A DNA stretch of 22,877 nt, taken from NCBI GenBank assembly GCA_001275005.1, contig JWZX01003140.1, positions 1 through 22,877 on the forward strand, written 5' to 3'. This document shows positions 3,993 to 22,877 of this stretch, piece after piece. The position numbers and the translations under genes are program-made. Numbering within the stretch: position 1 is the first letter of the stretch; each line of letters begins with the position of its first letter. The notes beneath the pieces were generated by a model that searched no databases, was not told where the DNA came from, and was given only the letters and a program-made list of their open reading frames with translations. Source of the stretch: Chrysochromulina tobinii (lineage: Eukaryota; Haptophyta; Prymnesiales; Chrysochromulinaceae).

Positions 3993-4413
3993 GGAGAGGA
4001 TCGATTACAGCCGAGCCCACACCGAGAACAAGGAGGAGTATGTTGAGGAAGCACAACAAACAGGAAGCGGAGAGGCCAAATGCTCGTCCCGGAGCATGAG
4101 CACGAAAGCGCAAGCCGATGGAACACAATGAGGGAGGGAGCGGAGGAGCTGAATAAAAGCCCGTCCCGGAGCATGAGCCATGGCATGAGCACGAAAGCGC
4201 GAGCCGATGGGTCACGTGATTTGACCATGCATTCATGAGACACGAGACATCGACTTTCACGCGAAACGTATCGAACGTCCCTACTTTATTGTCGGTTTTA
4301 AGCGAGCAAGCCATGGCAAGCTTCTTTACTTGAATGCGTTTGCTTATGGTCACAGGAATGTCTCACTCTTATCCATATTTGGGTATTTCCACATTTGGGT
4401 CCTGAGGAGAAAA
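3993..4413. repeat. Intergenic spacer with a duplicated ~37 bp segment
   Basis: The segment at 4085-4121 (CGTCCCGGAGCATGAGCACG..., ending AGCCGATGG) recurs at 4162-4210. The second copy carries an extra ~12 nt formed by a local repeat of GCATGAG. The rest is intergenic and probably holds the ankyrin 3' end (AATAAA at 4152) and the protease promoter. Confidence 0.65.
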
Positions 4414-9208: not shown

Positions 9209-9988
9209 TCACACTCTCCGAAGTAGAGGACTGCCCAGAACGCGCCGGAGCGCCTTGACGGTTCGGCTCTGGCCCAGGCCAAGTACGAGCCCACGCCGCG
9301 GCTCAGCTGCAGGTCCAGCTGTCCGTGGGGGCTCGGCCCCTGCTGCTGCCTCTGACGCTGCGCTTGTCGACGGACCCGAGGCTGATGCGGTCTCGGCGCT
9401 GAAGCCGGGCCGCTGGCGCTGCTGCTTGAAGAATCTGCGCATCAGGTCGCCTGCCTGATCGGCGAGCACTCCGCCGGTGACGCTCAGCGTGTGGTACGGA
9501 TGCGCAAAGTCACTCTGCGGGCGCAGCGCGCCCTCGATGGCGCCCAGGCGCGGGTTTGGTGCGCCGTAGACGAGCCGCTCGACGCGAAACGCATGCAGCG
9601 CGGCGAGACACATGGGGCACGGCTCAACGGTGCAGTACAGCGTCGTTGAGGATAACCGCCAGCTCGGCCAGCGTGGGTCGGCAGCAGCGGTACGAGCACA
9701 CAGCATCTCCGCATGCGCAGATGCATCGCGAAGCTCCTCAACTCGATTATGCGCCTGCGCCACGATGAGGCCGTCATGCACGATCACGGCACCGATGGGA
9801 ACCTCGCCGCTCGCAAAAGCAGCCTCTGCCTGACGCAGTGCCGCGGACATGAAGAGCTCATCGTCGCTGGATGAAGCGACGTTGGCACTGCACAGGAACG
9901 TATCACGGCCCGAGCGAGTATGCGCGCCGGTCATGAGCCGCGAGTGCTGCGCGACCAGCATGCCGCCGAGCACAGGCAATGGACGCAT
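9209..9988 (-). CDS. TadA-type tRNA adenosine (A34) deaminase, probably organellar
   Basis: From the ATG at 9988 the protein is 259 residues. The zinc/catalytic site is intact: SAHAEM (His92, Glu94) and EPCPMC (Cys124, Cys127). Further TadA signatures are EVPIGAVIV, HNRVEEL, STTLYCTVEPC, RLVYGAPNPRLGA and the C-terminal LMRRFFKQQR. The family converts adenosine to inosine at the wobble position of tRNA-Arg. The bacterial-type sequence plus a ~45-residue N-terminal extension (MRPLPVLGG..., Ser/Arg-rich) suggests import into plastid or mitochondrion; this is inference. A ~65-residue Ala/Ser/Pro-rich C-terminal extension beyond the bacterial end is unusual. A longer reading upstream would begin with GTG. 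Confidence 0.85.
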   Translation of the reverse strand: MRPLPVLGGMLVAQHSRLMTGAHTRSGRDTFLCSANVASSSDDELFMSAALRQAEAAFASGEVPIGAVIVHDGLIVAQAHNRVEELRDASAHAEMLCARTAAADPRWPSWRLSSTTLYCTVEPCPMCLAALHAFRVERLVYGAPNPRLGAIEGALRPQSDFAHPYHTLSVTGGVLADQAGDLMRRFFKQQRQRPGFSAETASASGPSTSAASEAAAGAEPPRTAGPAAEPRRGLVLGLGQSRTVKALRRVLGSPLLRRV

Positions 9989-13744: not shown

Positions 13745-15442
13745 TCAGGTCCAAGGGAAGAAGTTGGCATGCAGCACCGTCCCCACGCTCGCGAAGATGG
13801 CGACGTAGCCACACAGCCAGCCGCGGAGTCTCCGGCTGCCCAGCCACGCACCTGCCGCTCTAGGCAGTGCGTCGCCGCCACCTCGGAGAAGGAGAATATG
13901 TGCCATGAACCAGTAAAAGGGCGGACATGCTGCCGCCGCGAGCCGTGTGCTGACTTGCACGTTGCCGAAGAGGAGGATGAGGCCGCTCAGGAGTGCCCAG
14001 TGCAGCGCGTAGATCCACACACGAGGCGTAAGCGCGCCCTCCGCTGTCGACGGCCTGTCCCCGCTGCCCTCGCTCGCCTCGGCAGCTCTGCGCGCCGAGG
14101 AGCGCCGAGCGCCGTTCTGAGCACTCGACTGGCTGCCCACGCTCGCCTCGGCTGCTCTGTCCGCCCGTAGCCCGAGCATGCATCGCACGGCTTCGCGAGG
14201 ACGAGTCCGCGCGCTCTGCACGCGCGCGGCGGCCAGGCAGGAGAGGCTCGCAGCAGCACAAAGCCCGAGTGCGGGCGCCGCCAATGCAAAGTTGGGCAGT
14301 TGGCGCCATTCATAGTAGCCCAAGAGGCGCACGCCCCAGTAGTGGCGCTGCACGTAAGCGTACAAATCGGGCAGCTGTCGCTCGCACCAGTCCGCAGGCA
14401 CCGTTGCGTCTCTCGCCGCATGCATGATGCGCGTTGGCGTGAGCCCCGCTGTGAGCCCCGCTGCCGCCGTCAATGGCGACGGCCCCCCCGCCACCGCCGC
14501 CGCCGCCGCCGCTCGCCCCCAGACTAACTTTGAGAGCCGGCCAAGAGGTGCCGCGGCCGCCGCAGAGTCGCTCGCGCCGCACACGCGCCGATAGCCTGCC
14601 ACCTGCCAGGCGACGTACGGGCTGTCCAATCAGTGTCCAATCAGTGTCCAATCAGTGTCCAATCAGTGTCCCGTGGCCACCTGCCAGGCGACGTACGGGC
14701 CGACGACGAGCAGAACCTGTAGCAACATGCTAAGCGAGGCGCCCGCTAGGGCGACAGCTGTCGCCGCGTGTTGGCGGCGTCCGGGGCTTGGCGCGTCCAG
14801 GATCTGCACGCAGCGGCGCAGGCCGGCGTGCGCCACCAAGAGCACGTGTAGCAGGCCGTTGGCTCGCGTGGCGGTGGCGAGGGCGAGAGCGACTGAGCCG
14901 GCCCATGCGTAGCTACGTTCCAGGAGCAGCATGCCCCCGAACGTGGCTGCCGCAAACGTCGACTCGGCGTACACGGTCGAGAAGAAGATGGAGGCCGGCG
15001 AGATACAAAACAGGAGCGCGGACGTGCGCGCGAGTCGCGCGTCCTGCAGCACGCACTCTCCCAGCCGGTGGAGGCAGCATGCGGCCACCACGAAGGTGCT
15101 GTTGGAGAGCAGCACGCCCGCAAGGATGTGCAACTCGGTCTCGCAAAGCGGCGGCAGCATGTGGGCCAATAGGGCAGCTAGCCAACGAATGAGCAGCGGG
15201 AACATGGGGAAGAAGGCGTGGCTATACTCGTGCTCGGCCCATCCACTCGCCGTCACCGAGAGGAAGTGGGCACTGTCCCAGCGTGTGAACGCGCTCGTGA
15301 GCGCCGGCGAAAGCAGACACTCCGGCGGCAAGTCCATGCGCAGTGCGCCATCCGGAGAGTGGTCGGGGAACACGTAATCCGCCGTGAGCGCGAGCAGCAG
15401 CGTGGCAGCGCGACTGAATAGGGCATTCACGCCCACGCGCAT
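13745..15442 (-). CDS. PIGV: PIG-V-like GPI mannosyltransferase 2, two exons
   Basis: Exon 1 is 15442-14681 and exon 2 is 14602-13745; joined in phase 0 they encode about 539 residues. The start is the ATG at 15442; the longer reading begins with GTG. PIG-V hallmarks are FTRWDSAHFLSVTASGW (W55-D56, luminal loop), HAFFPMFPLLIRW, SPASIFFSTVYAESTFA and ATRANGLLHVLL in exon 1. Exon 2 has WCERQLPDLYAYVQRHYWGV, LLGYYEWRQLPNFALA and several hydrophobic helices. The family adds the second mannose to the GPI anchor precursor in the ER lumen. Exon 2 carries Ala-rich and RAAEAS repeat insertions relative to the family core. Without the proposed intron the frame would stop at ...AWQVATGH. Confidence 0.82.
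14603..14680 (-). other. 78-nt PIG-V intron made by a perfect local duplication
   Basis: A 25-nt sequence at 14598-14622 is repeated perfectly at 14676-14700, exactly 78 nt away. On the minus strand each copy contains TGGCAG|GTGGC. Splicing from the GT in the upstream copy (14680-14679) to the AG in the downstream copy (14604-14603) leaves one copy and restores ...PYVAWQVAGYRR. Between the copies are four tandem units of TGTCCAATCAG (14623-14666), which bring an in-frame TGA on the minus strand. Confidence 0.75.
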
Positions 15443-19600: not shown

Positions 19601-20868
19601 ATGTCATTCCTTCGGCCCGAGATTGCCGCCATCGATCCGAAAAACGCCACTCCAGAGCAGCTCGAGTTGCTTGCAAGCGACCCGATGCTGCGCAACCTCC
19701 AATTCCAGCTGCAGTGCGGCGTGCAGAACATCGAGCTCGAGTCCAACCAAGGCGCGCACAAGATCAGGAACATCAACGTGCCCGAGGGCGTGAACCCTCA
19801 GGAGTACTTGCAGCAGGTCATGGCCGAGGATAACCGGAACAAGCAACGCGAGGAGGCAGAGAAGAAGCGGCTCAAGGCGGCGGCGCGCGCCGAGAAACTC
19901 AAGACGAGTGACCCGTACCAGGTCATCGTGAGCGGCGCGGGCGTCGAGATGCTCAACGGTGTGTATGCGCGCGACGGCGAGGCGGTGCGCAACGGCGGTC
20001 GGGTCTTCAACGGTCCGAACGGCTTCGGTCTGTCGTACGAGTGCGTCTCGGGTGGCGCGGGCTGGATCATTGGCAAGGCGCCGCGCGCGTTCTACGCGAA
20101 CCAAACGGCGGACAAGGTGCCGCCAGAGGAGGACTGGATGATTCAGGAGCACGGCAAGGCGCCCTTGCCCACCTTCACCATCATCGAGCCCCTGATGGCA
20201 GTCGAGGCCAAGAAGGCAGAGGGCAACGCAGCGTTCAAGGAGGGGAAGCTGGAAGAAGCGATTGTCAAGTATGATGAGGCGCTGGCGCGATTGCCTCTGA
20301 GTGCGTCGAACGACCCCTGATGGACCCCCTGATCAGGTACGACGAGGCGCTCGCCCTGTGCCGTGAATGCGAGGGCGCCCATGGACTGGACGACGACGTG
20401 TATGGCAAGTTGTACGGGAATCGTGCCGAATGCCACCTGCAGCTCGGCCACTTTGAGCAGGTGAGGGCCTCGAATCGCCTCGAATCGCCTCTGACGGCCT
20501 ATGGTAGCCTCGGGTGGCCTCCAACAGCCTCCGATGACCTCTAGTAGCCTCTGATCGCCTCTGATCGCCTCTGATCGCCTCTGATAACCTCTAAATCGTT
20601 CTCTTTGAGCAGTGTCTCGCCGACGCGAGCCTCGCGATCGAGTACGATCCATGCTCCATCAAGGCTTTCGTGAGGAGGGCCAAGGCGGCGCAGGCGCTCG
20701 GCCAGCACGAGGTAGCCGAGCAGTGCCTGCGTGATGCGCTCGACATGACGCCAGGTAATAAGGAGGTACTCTCTCTGCAGGTGAGTGCCTCTGATTGCCT
20801 CTGATGGTCTCTACTTGCCTTTGATGGCATCTGAATGCCTCTGATTGCGACCGGTACTAACGAGGCCT

Positions 20869-20902
<34 letters not shown>

Positions 20903-22877
20903 TGTGCAGGACGAGTACCGCGTGGTTGGGCTCGCACGCAGCGGCAAGGACAGCGTGCTGATCGAGCTGCGTGAGTTGAGCTCACGATTGAGCTCGCTCC
21001 TGAAGCGAAAGGGCACGGCGGCGGAGGTGATTGCGATCTCCGCGAGTGTCATCCAAGTGCCCTCTGAACGTCTGACTGCCCTCTGACTGCCCTCTGACTG
21101 CTGCCGTCTGAGTGCTGCCGTCTGACTGCTGCCGTCTGACTGCTGTCTGAGTGAGTGTCGTCTGAGTGTCGTCTGAGTGTCGTCTGAGTGCCTTCTTGAG
21201 TGCCGTCTGACTGTCGTCTCCTTGCATCTGATTGCATCAGGTGATTGCCATCTTCAAGCAGATGCCGACGCTTCTCATGGCGCTGAAGCTTGTGCATGAT
21301 GTGGGGAATATTGGGGACCGAAGCTATGAGTCCGCGCCCAATTACGACGCCCAGGCGAGTTCTGATTGCCTCTGATTGCCTCTGATTGCCTCTGATTGCC
21401 TCTGCGCCCAATAACGACGCCCAGGCGAGTTCGGAATGCCTCTGAGTGCCTCTTATTGCCTCTGATTGCCTCTGAGTGCCTCTGACTGCCTCTGACTGCC
21501 TCTAAGTGCCCTCGGATGAGACGCGGCGCAGGTCTACTTTCGGCTGATGACGGATAATTACGCGCTGCTCGCACCCCTGATCCGACCGATGCCCAAACAA
21601 GCCGAGCTCCTACGAGAATGCCTCGAGACGATCGCCGCCTCGCTGCGTGATTGCATCTCCAATCAGCTTGCGTTTGACAAGTACGTCGGGCAGCTCGTGC
21701 CGTTGCTTCGCGCCAAGGCGACGTTGCCGTTTGAGCTGCTCAAGGCGGCGGTCAAGGTGCTCGGGACGATGGCCCATCGCGTCGCCGCACGCAAGATCAT
21801 GTACGATCCTGACTCGGCAGAGGGCGTGATGCACGTGCTTTCACATCCGGACTCGTCGCAGGCGCGTCCCGCGACGTACATCATCCAGGTGCGTGCCTCT
21901 GATGGCCTATGGGTGCCTGAGTGCCTCTGGGTGCCTCTGGGTGCCTCTGAGTGCCTCTGAGTGCCTCTGAGTGCCTCTGATTGCCACTGATCGCGCCCCG
22001 CGACGTACATAATCCAGGCGATCGATGACCTGAAGGACATGTCCACGCTCGCGACGCTGCTGAGCGTGCCTGGTGCATGCGACACGTTTTGGCGCGAGTC
22101 GCACTCGCGCCGCGAGGATATTCGGACGCCGGCGCGCTCGATTTTGGCGCGCGCGTTCGGCCACCCGATCTGCCGCAAACGGCTGCGCCTCGTCGAGCGC
22201 ACCAAACGCCTCGTCGGGCTGCTGGAGCAGATGACCGAGAACGAGAAGGAGCTCGAGACCTGGGACGTGGGCGACCCGAGTGCGAGCGAGCCCGAGCATC
22301 TGGTGGTGCGAGACCTGACGAACCTCGCGCCCGAGAGCAGCCGCGTGCTCACGGCGCTCGTGCTCGGGACGGCGCTCGAGACGATCTCGGACGCCGAGAT
22401 CGCCGAGGCGCTCCACCGGCTGGGCGTGTGGAAGCATCTCTCGTCGGCGCTCGTGGCGCGCCCTCCCCTCAGCTGCGCCGCACTAAAGCTGCTTCGCGCG
22501 ATGATGCAGCACTCGCGGCAAGCTCTCGAGCGAGCCGTCGAATACGGGCTGCCTGCGTGGCTGCTGCAGTGCCGCGAAACATCGGACGCTTCCGATGATC
22601 TGAACGCGAACGTCAAGACGACGCTCTACTCCCAGGACGCCCGAGACGACGCGTGCCAGGTGCTCGGCTTGGTCGCGAACCACGGGGCCTTCCATGCAGC
22701 CATCGACGCCTTCGATGAGGGTTCGGTGCTCCGTCGCATGAGCCAGGTGCTTCTGATGGCCTCTGATGGCCTCTGATGGCCTCTGATGGCCTCTGATGGC
22801 CTCTGATGGCCTCTGATGGCCTCTGATGGCCTCTGATGGCCTCTGATGGCCTCTGATTGCGGTGCTCCGTCGCATGA
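19601..22877 (+). CDS. TPR / armadillo-like co-chaperone-type protein, partial, at least 7 exons
   Basis: Exons: 19601-20268, 20337-20460, 20613-20780, 20910-21026 (or to 21056), 21241-21354, 21532-21888 and 22018-22746, continuing past the window. Frames join cleanly for at least 759 codons; intron 1 is phase 2, the others phase 0. The N-terminus has NATPEQLELLASDPMLRNL and a Lys/Glu-rich coiled coil. A compact domain at about 107-200 follows (GVEMLNGVYARDG... GGAGWIIGKAPRAFYANQ). Three TPR motifs begin at EAKKAEGNAAFKEGKLEEAI, continue KLYGNRAECHLQLGHFEQCL and end KAFVRRAKAAQALGQHEVAE. The rest is all-helical and armadillo-like. Architecture resembles UNC-45 or TTC12, which assist myosin or dynein assembly with Hsp90. 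That role is inference. Confidence 0.75.
20269..20336 (+). other. TPR-gene intron 1 (68 nt), start duplicates next exon
   Basis: Donor AA|GTATGATG and acceptor GATCAG|GTACGACG. The first 19 intron bases match the first 19 bases of exon 2 at 15 positions. Splicing gives EAIVKYDEALALCREC; retention gives a TGA a few codons later. One GCCTCTGA decamer lies inside. Confidence 0.75.
20461..20612 (+). other. TPR-gene intron 2 (152 nt), decamer array, 10-nt flanking repeat
   Basis: Exon 2 ends CTTTGAGCAG (20451-20460) and the intron ends with the identical CTTTGAGCAG (20603-20612). Between them are about 13 units of 10 nt beginning GCCTC or ACCTC, such as GCCTCGAATC and GCCTCTGATC. Confidence 0.85.
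20781..20909 (+). other. TPR-gene intron 3 (129 nt), decamers plus CT/GT microsatellite
   Basis: GTGAGTGCCTCTGAT donor, five or six diverged decamers, GGTACTAACG (TACTAAC branch consensus) at 20853-20862, then (CT)n(GT)n and GCAG. The exon before ends GGTACTCTCTCTGCAG, so the intron end looks like an expanded copy of it. Confidence 0.8.
21027..21240 (+). other. TPR-gene intron 4 (214 nt or 184 nt)
   Basis: GAG|GTGATTGCGATCT at the 5' end matches CAG|GTGATTGCCATCT at the acceptor and exon 5 start. An alternative in-phase donor is at 21057 (CAA|GTGCCC), directly before the repeat array, which would add ten residues. The array is made of CTGACTGC, GCCGTCTGA and GTGTCGTCTGA units. Confidence 0.7.
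21355..21531 (+). other. TPR-gene intron 5 (177 nt), GC donor, stacked copy
   Basis: Donor CAG|GCGAGT. The 29 nt spanning exon end and donor (21334-21362) recur with one mismatch at 21404-21432, 70 nt away, after four TCTGATTGCC units. A second decamer array follows, and the acceptor is GGCGCAG|GTCTAC. Confidence 0.75.
21889..22017 (+). other. TPR-gene intron 6 (129 nt), 21-nt flanking repeat
   Basis: The last 21 nt of exon 6 (21868-21888) and the last 21 nt of the intron (21997-22017) agree at 20 positions, both ending ATCCAG. About nine GTGCCTCTGA-like units fill the intron. Confidence 0.85.
22747..22877 (+). other. TPR-gene intron 7, incomplete at the window end
   Basis: Exon 7 ends ...CGCATGAGCCAG at 22746, then GTGCTTCTGATGG. 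Ten near-perfect CTCTGATGGC decamers run to about 22860. The final 18 bases of the window (22860-22877) repeat 22724-22741 exactly, the exon end without its last five bases. Confidence 0.8.

Follow-up and report, generated by a model that had tools for sequence, protein, structure and literature searches.

Exon-derived direct repeats at intron boundaries in Chrysochromulina tobinii and the probably introner-like elements between them

Background

The origin and spread of spliceosomal introns is a long-standing question; many introns retain no trace of how they were gained. A contig of 22,877 nucleotides from the haptophyte Chrysochromulina tobinii (JWZX01003140.1, analysed over its whole length and here called the window) raises this question for the gene of a TPR-domain protein, which occupies positions 19601 to 22746 of the forward strand (exons 1 to 7) and is interrupted by seven introns. 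According to an original prediction made from the letters of the window, nearly all of these introns are bounded by direct repeats that carry the splice sites, as would be expected of introner-like insertion with target-site duplication or of tandem duplication of an exon segment containing AG|GT. The locus thus asks whether the repeats are real, whether they recur in the genome, and which process may have made them.

The TPR gene and the repeats at its introns

The gene is partial. Its coding sequence, read from 19601, has 759 open codons after splicing, and the window edge is the end of the contig (C1981), which leaves the exon beyond intron 7 outside. Pfam and PDB sequence matches were concentrated on the TPR part of the spliced product, and a protein search yielded 21 matches, 17 of them strong, the closest ortholog being P0001, a full-length protein with 85% identity. 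Since the full-length open reading frames (ORFs) of P0001 to P0005, P0009 and P0010 cross junctions 1 to 6 and the donor side of intron 7 without gaps in the protein alignment, these junctions and donor 7 are, as judged from the alignment, correct at the protein level. The introns had been predicted to lie mostly in phase 0; six of the seven do, the exception being intron 1, which is in phase 2.

Matches between intron and exon were anchored at the splice site and compared with a null of about 50,000 random AG|GT / YAG pairs from the window; because of this anchoring, the counts differ slightly from the earlier ones of 15/19, 15/17 and 20/21. As predicted, three introns repeat the end of the upstream exon at their own 3' end. 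In intron 2 (20461 to 20612; 152 nt, with a 10-nt array), positions 20603-20612 match 20451-20460 at 10/10 (p 0.0001), and in intron 6 (21889 to 22017; 129 nt, with a 10-nt array), positions 21992-22017 match 21863-21888 at 24/26, a value never reached in the null. Only the 5' part of intron 7 is present (22747 to 22877; donor GTGCTT, 10-nt array at 100% matches), and its positions 22860-22877 copy 22724-22741 at 18/18 up to the contig end, a match that carries no p value. Two further introns repeat the start of the downstream exon at their 5' end, again as predicted: intron 1 (20269 to 20336; GT-AG, 68 nt, one to two array units), with 15/18 matches between 20269-20286 and 20337-20354 (p 0.0002), and intron 4 (21027 to 21240; 214 nt, arrays of about 11-14 nt, 3' end GCATCAG), with 12/13 matches between 21027-21039 and 21241-21253 (p 0.0002).

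The partial repeats claimed for introns 3 and 5 did not hold up at the boundaries. In the same splice-anchored test against the window null, intron 3 (20781 to 20909; 129 nt, array plus (TC)n(TG)n) had no convincing boundary repeat (5/5, p 0.03), and that of intron 5 (21355 to 21531; GC-AG, 177 nt, two arrays) was unsupported (5/6, p 0.13). The copy found in intron 5 is internal: positions 21404-21432, which separate the two arrays, match the upstream exon end plus donor (21334-21362) at 28/29. Exon-derived direct repeats at the splice sites of the TPR introns are therefore confirmed, for five of the seven introns (1, 2, 4, 6 and 7) rather than for nearly all.

The P0001 ORF has no interruption at any of the seven intron sites. 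The ORFs of P0001 to P0005 are all uninterrupted, and the records leave unstated whether they derive from genomic DNA or from transcripts. For P0001, a contig of 11.7 kb points to genomic DNA, in which case the introns would be absent from its locus. Sites 3 and 5 may be older than the others, because the ORFs of two relatives (P0015 and P0008, respectively) carry insertions exactly there. DNA of an intron-free TPR ortholog was not found among the bacterial and archaeal genome contigs searched. A search for the acceptor of intron 7 on another contig gave six places at no more than two mismatches, the only exact copy being the known one.

Flanking repeats in other loci of the genome

The assembly of the same genome comprises 53.15 Mb in 2,253 contigs. 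The published genome has a mean of one intron per gene and a GC content of 63.4%, and the excerpted text of its description does not mention such elements (PMC4580454); the GC content of the window is 63.2%. In the window and 19 loci picked solely by an exact 23-mer of the array, the left and right flanks matched at a score of at least 24 in 65 of 113 arrays, as compared with 0.52% of 11,918 mispaired pairs, and at a score of at least 40 in 44 of the 113, as compared with none of the mispaired pairs; full flanks were required of these arrays, and neighbouring arrays within one intron are not independent. An array-free scan of 194,914 bases gave 476 direct-repeat pairs, several offsets of a single array being counted separately; after a single dinucleotide shuffle of these bases it gave 3. 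The excess of flanking repeats over a control that the original prediction proposed to look for is thus present in the sampled loci, in this version of the scan.

The splice sites bear three relations to the repeat. Among 84 GT-AG candidates with repeats, AG|GT lies within the repeat in 48, GT stands at the repeat start and AG comes from the element in 24, and AG stands at the repeat end and GT comes from the element in 12; some of the 84 are probably false, because a simple score chose their strand and splice sites. The spliced products of eight loci were compared with Pfam, and in four of them a domain crosses the junction (PIG-V in the window, glycosyl hydrolase 3 C-terminal, peptidase M14 and AAA); in the other four, FAD_binding_3 ends three residues past the junction, an EF-hand lies elsewhere, and two products had no match. 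The intron of the PIG-V mannosyltransferase gene (14603 to 14680, minus strand; 78 nt, 11-nt array) is bounded by a perfect 25/25 direct repeat (14598-14622 and 14676-14700) with AG|GT inside it, and PF04188 spans the joined junction with an E value of 8e-64.

Two families of elements between the repeats

Between the repeats lie elements of two families. F1 is a 10-nt minisatellite array, which often ends in ..CCTCCCTCATCAG / GATTGCCTCCCTCATCAG, and F2 is a sequence of about 40 nt, GCATGCAAGTGCTCACCACGGCG..CCCCACAG, with a pyrimidine tract and the motif CTCAC, which we take to resemble a branch site. The F1 end followed by GT occurs at 666 places in the genome exactly and at 4,141 with at most three mismatches (reversed controls, 0 and 0), the 18-base core of F2 at 757 places exactly (reversed control, 0), and a 20-base version of F2 at 2,410 places with at most three mismatches (reversed control, 5), all of these being pattern counts and not proven introns. 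The phenomenon is real and, to judge by these counts, genome-wide. The same element ends are found amid different exons at non-homologous positions, as in a family of introners.

For each family, loci of about 420-470 bases were taken as the first among the matches listed, clustered places being skipped. The exon side of the element end was repeated upstream in 14 of 20 F1 loci and 13 of 20 F2 loci, as compared with 7 of 195 mispaired joins. An anchored repeat was present in 11 of the 20 F1 loci, with a GT donor in nine of the 11. In the window and its 19 companion loci, the repeat starts at the AG in 19 of 35 F1 ends and four of seven F2 ends (score of at least 24).

Anatomy of F2-type introns

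With 40 further F2 loci, the loci picked by the F2 core alone, all from the first among the matches listed, came to 60, of which 57 were usable; they had an acceptor-anchored repeat at a score of at least 20 in 39 cases, with a GT donor in 31 of the 39, a GC donor in four, and a G preceding the donor in 33. Of all the loci then in the set, 36 F2-type introns had a strong repeat and a GT or GC donor, and 33 of these end in CCACAG. The similarity between F2-type introns thus reaches the splice site, whereas the F1 end was set by the design of the search. When one intron (L105) was left out, as a stacked copy whose repeat runs into the element, the downstream exon start of the remaining 35, over 17-47 nt (median 30), equals the 5' part of the intron, and the acceptor comes from the element.

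These 35 introns measure 80 +- 7 nt. The length of the repeat and that of the 5' segment compensate each other (r -0.71 in the 35 introns; r -0.75 in all 36, for which independence of the two would give a standard deviation of 13.6), which fits a narrow range of allowed intron length. The element starts inside the consensus in 19 of the 36; most of these starts lie 10-18 nt upstream of the anchor and the most extreme at 4 and 34 nt, one of the 19 being the stacked L105. The other 17 carry 2-32 extra bases that do not fit the consensus, for which a few long copies served as the basis. Selection by the core leaves shorter F2 copies under-sampled. When 14 of these fillers were compared with the continuing exon, 12 were no more similar to it than shuffles and two (L093 and L112) were similar, so that a minority of the fillers may be decayed repeat.

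Among the F2 loci, L071 (C101) and L088 (C235) have identical printed stretches around the core, suggesting a duplicated locus or alternative haplotypes in the assembly.

A parent and a daughter intron

One filler led to an exon elsewhere in the genome. The intron on contig C19 (L032/L072) has its own 22-nt repeat followed by a 62-nt insert, and in a search at no more than three mismatches the 5' portion of this insert was found elsewhere only in contig C395, three times at a spacing of 80 bases. There, the portion closes a 45-nt exon repeat that belongs to C395 itself, and the same element follows. The element unit of C395 occurs twice in tandem, 177 nt being removed altogether, and the last copy of the portion runs on in an open frame. 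This frame had no Pfam match, and it is read as exon because it stays open and because of the way the repeats are arranged. The C19 insert matches the first parental copy in C395 at 61 of 62 bases, 22 of which are identical in the C395 exon copy. Copying of the daughter intron thus appears to have run from the AG end of the parent intron back over at least 22 nt of the duplicated exon of the parent. The gene on C19 is that of an L-asparaginase, and its junction (residue 303) lies inside Asparaginase_C (286-402). Over residues 4-332 the product aligns with structures of L-asparaginase 1, for example 2p2d and 6nxc; the alignment has a gap of two residues, which stands four residues beyond the junction.

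The fillers of three other introns gave different results. That of C22 had no other match, and that of C405, considered as a parental scar, was instead a local 18-nt tandem duplication. For C256 no source exon was found, and the same upstream filler is common to four F2 introns at different loci (C256 and three others).

Origin of the introns

In these loci the intron is made up of the element and one of the two copies of the repeated exon stretch, and splicing therefore restores the exon sequence. In the main type, AG comes from the element, and GT together with the 5' part of the intron comes from the duplicated exon start. The mirror type, to which introns 2, 6 and 7 of the TPR gene belong, takes GT from the element and AG from the duplicated exon end, and in the third type AG|GT lies within the repeat. 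The coding sequence is unchanged at the protein level in the TPR gene, at the four of eight junctions crossed by a Pfam domain, and in the L-asparaginase gene. Of the two origins first proposed, insertion with target duplication is favoured, because the repeats enclose sequence of two high-copy families, and the excess of flank repeats in the sampled loci supports it as well. We consider it probable that these are mobile introns of the introner type, in which a copy of the F1 or F2 element of one intron would enter an exon and become flanked by a duplicated stretch of the target (17-47 nt in F2-type introns).

How the copying might proceed is a more tentative matter, and we give somewhat less than even credence to an end-anchored replication. 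The constant end at the splice site suggests that synthesis would start there and run back to points that vary between copies, some of them within the duplicated exon of the parent itself, after which the product would be joined to the target exon and the staggered target ends filled in, leaving the long repeat. The template may about equally well have been RNA, with target-primed reverse transcription of an intron or pre-mRNA, or DNA, copied after priming by microhomology. Target-primed retroposition, as in LINEs and SINEs, yields a constant 3' end, variable 5' ends and target duplications of variable length. The constant AG end and the variable 5' points of the elements resemble this process, and the duplications are variable here also, although the 5' variation was seen in a core-selected sample, the elements have no poly(A) or known tail, no reverse transcriptase is linked to them (no search for enzymes was made), and mirror-type insertions exist. 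The mirror-type introns 2, 6 and 7 are also compatible with DNA copying from the donor end.

Several observations, however, weigh against mobile introns of this kind. In the window and the 19 loci picked by the array, other YAG|G sites reach a score of at least 24 in 144 of 1,879 cases, some of which belong to other repeat-bounded introns, as compared with 19 of 35 F1 ends and four of seven F2 ends, and the GT after AG in F1 loci is there by construction, as part of the search pattern. No anchored repeat was seen in 18 of the 57 F2 loci. Of two smaller F1 or mixed sets, one shows the compensation of lengths (r -0.60, n=9) but the other does not (r +0.14, n=17), so that it is convincing only in the F2 set. 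The ragged 5' end of F2 is moderately supported, as choice by the exact core clusters most starts at 10-18 nt, and one of the four fillers tested led to a source exon (C19 to C395). Finally, 43 of 81 joins keep an open reading frame, whereas a shift of the join by 1 or 2 leaves 35-39 open and a shift by 3 leaves 46, and F2 joins are open in 27 of 34 cases against 26 and 24 for shifted joins; we rejected frame continuity as a test of splicing, since it did not discriminate and is too weak in a GC-rich genome.

The alternative that survives best is that staggered double-strand breaks, or paired nicks, were repaired with filler DNA. The repeat would then be a filled overhang, and the element would recur through its abundance, with no dedicated machinery. 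Variable repeat lengths, mirror types and fillers of mixed origin, all of them observed here, speak for it, and in the neointrons of Daphnia pulex exon-end repeats at the opposite intron end have been explained by staggered breaks (PMC4202315). Those repeats, however, measure only 4-12 bp, and no recurrent element is described in the excerpted account (PMC4202315). Random filler would not yield identical element ends at the splice site thousands of times, and we regard break repair as unlikely. It overlaps the DNA-template form of end-anchored copying.

A third possibility, introners that are cut-and-paste DNA transposons, has been reported for Aureococcus and Micromonas; here their target duplication would have to be unusually long, and this reading appears quite improbable. 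Many copies, a target duplication and a splice site taken partly from the duplication make up the introner pattern (PMC9860276), and in most loci the starts of the F2 element cluster within about 8 nt. Against this, the length of the repeat is not fixed but ranges over 17-47 nt, inspection by eye found no terminal inverted repeat in F2 elements, and in one intron (C19) a piece of the parent's exon was copied along.

Still less probable is pure tandem duplication of an AG|GT exon segment (the Rogers model) followed by local growth of minisatellites, the second origin first proposed. In the AGGT duplication model an exon copy turns into intron and the duplicated AG|GT can supply both splice sites (Rogers 1989; Hellsten 2011, cited in PMC4974935), and the 48 of 84 candidates with AG|GT inside the repeat, and the loci at which the unit of repeat and element is in tandem, agree with it. 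In contrast to introns of that kind (PMC4974935), those described here are not made of duplicated exon alone; the model leaves the foreign element between the copies unexplained, as it does the identical element ends at thousands of places. An artefact of assembly or chance is hardly credible, since, although arrays break assemblies and the contig ends within intron 7, the two copies of a repeat often differ at several bases, mispaired controls are low, protein domains cross the junctions and a similar footprint occurs in the ORF of a relative (P0008).

Insertion of introner-like elements thus remains the preferred explanation, with two features that set it apart from known systems, the unusually long exon duplication and, if our reading is correct, the end-anchored copying. 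Published introners, as surveyed by Gozashti et al. (2022), are likewise many similar introns at unrelated sites, which carry one splice site, take the other from the duplicated target and usually leave the mRNA unchanged (PMC9860276). Their target duplications, however, are 3-9 bp long, and many families in the excerpted survey have none; an introner from a Chrysochromulina metagenome assembly has a 4-bp duplication carrying the 5' splice site and, in the same excerpt, no inverted repeats (PMC9860276). The repeats of F2-type introns, at 17-47 nt, are much longer, these introns carry the 3' splice site in the element, and the bodies of the introns described here are minisatellites or an acceptor module of about 40 nt. 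The introner elements of Amoebophrya also have direct repeats at the intron ends and a transposon-like spread, but their repeats are 3-5 nt and they have inverted repeats of 8-20 nt and non-canonical splice sites (PMC7789003). Direct repeats recorded near splice sites in a general survey span 4-30 bp, with a mean of 11.4 (PMC11782384), and searches of the open-licence PMC literature gave no introners with repeats as long as those described here.

In this genome very many copies keep their footprints. These consist of a long exon duplication and an element whose splice-site end is constant, to which at least one intron adds a scar of the parent gene, and they can be used to test how introns spread. 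If copying was end-anchored, each new intron would be part element and part copy of the host exon, and some introns would carry a fossil of the parent exon, so that genealogies of introns would be directly readable.

Other loci in the genome, the window and the ORFs of relatives

A unit of exon copy plus element is repeated in tandem inside one intron at L018 4746-5160, at L012 8702-9091 on the minus strand, and at C395 around 9561-9744. In the window itself, outside the TPR gene, positions 2507-2785 hold about 3.3 copies of a repeat of 75-86 nt (GGGGCGCGAGATTTTGACCTTGGGGGAGGG..), whose minus-strand units are bordered by AAG|GTCAAA and which is possibly another stacked intron family. At 4078-4210, two overlapping direct repeats of 24 and 28 nt, with offsets of 77 and 89, surround a sequence resembling the F1 end on the minus strand (CTCCCTCATTG).

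The ORF of P0008 contains two insertions flanked by repeated exon peptide: VLSLQDE.. occurs twice immediately before site 3, and IDELKDM recurs, in another frame, after an insertion. A codon-consistency test supports the IDELKDM copy: 29 of 32 residues fit the +2 frame and six the +1 frame, whereas 500 shuffles gave 8 on average and 15 at most. The repeated part fit at 7/7. If the donor lies at Q|A, this insertion may be an independent gain at the site of intron 6, with the repeat on the side of the downstream exon. In P0017, an in-frame insertion resembling a read-through intron lies between NQ and VAFDKYV, at a position not used in the window gene.

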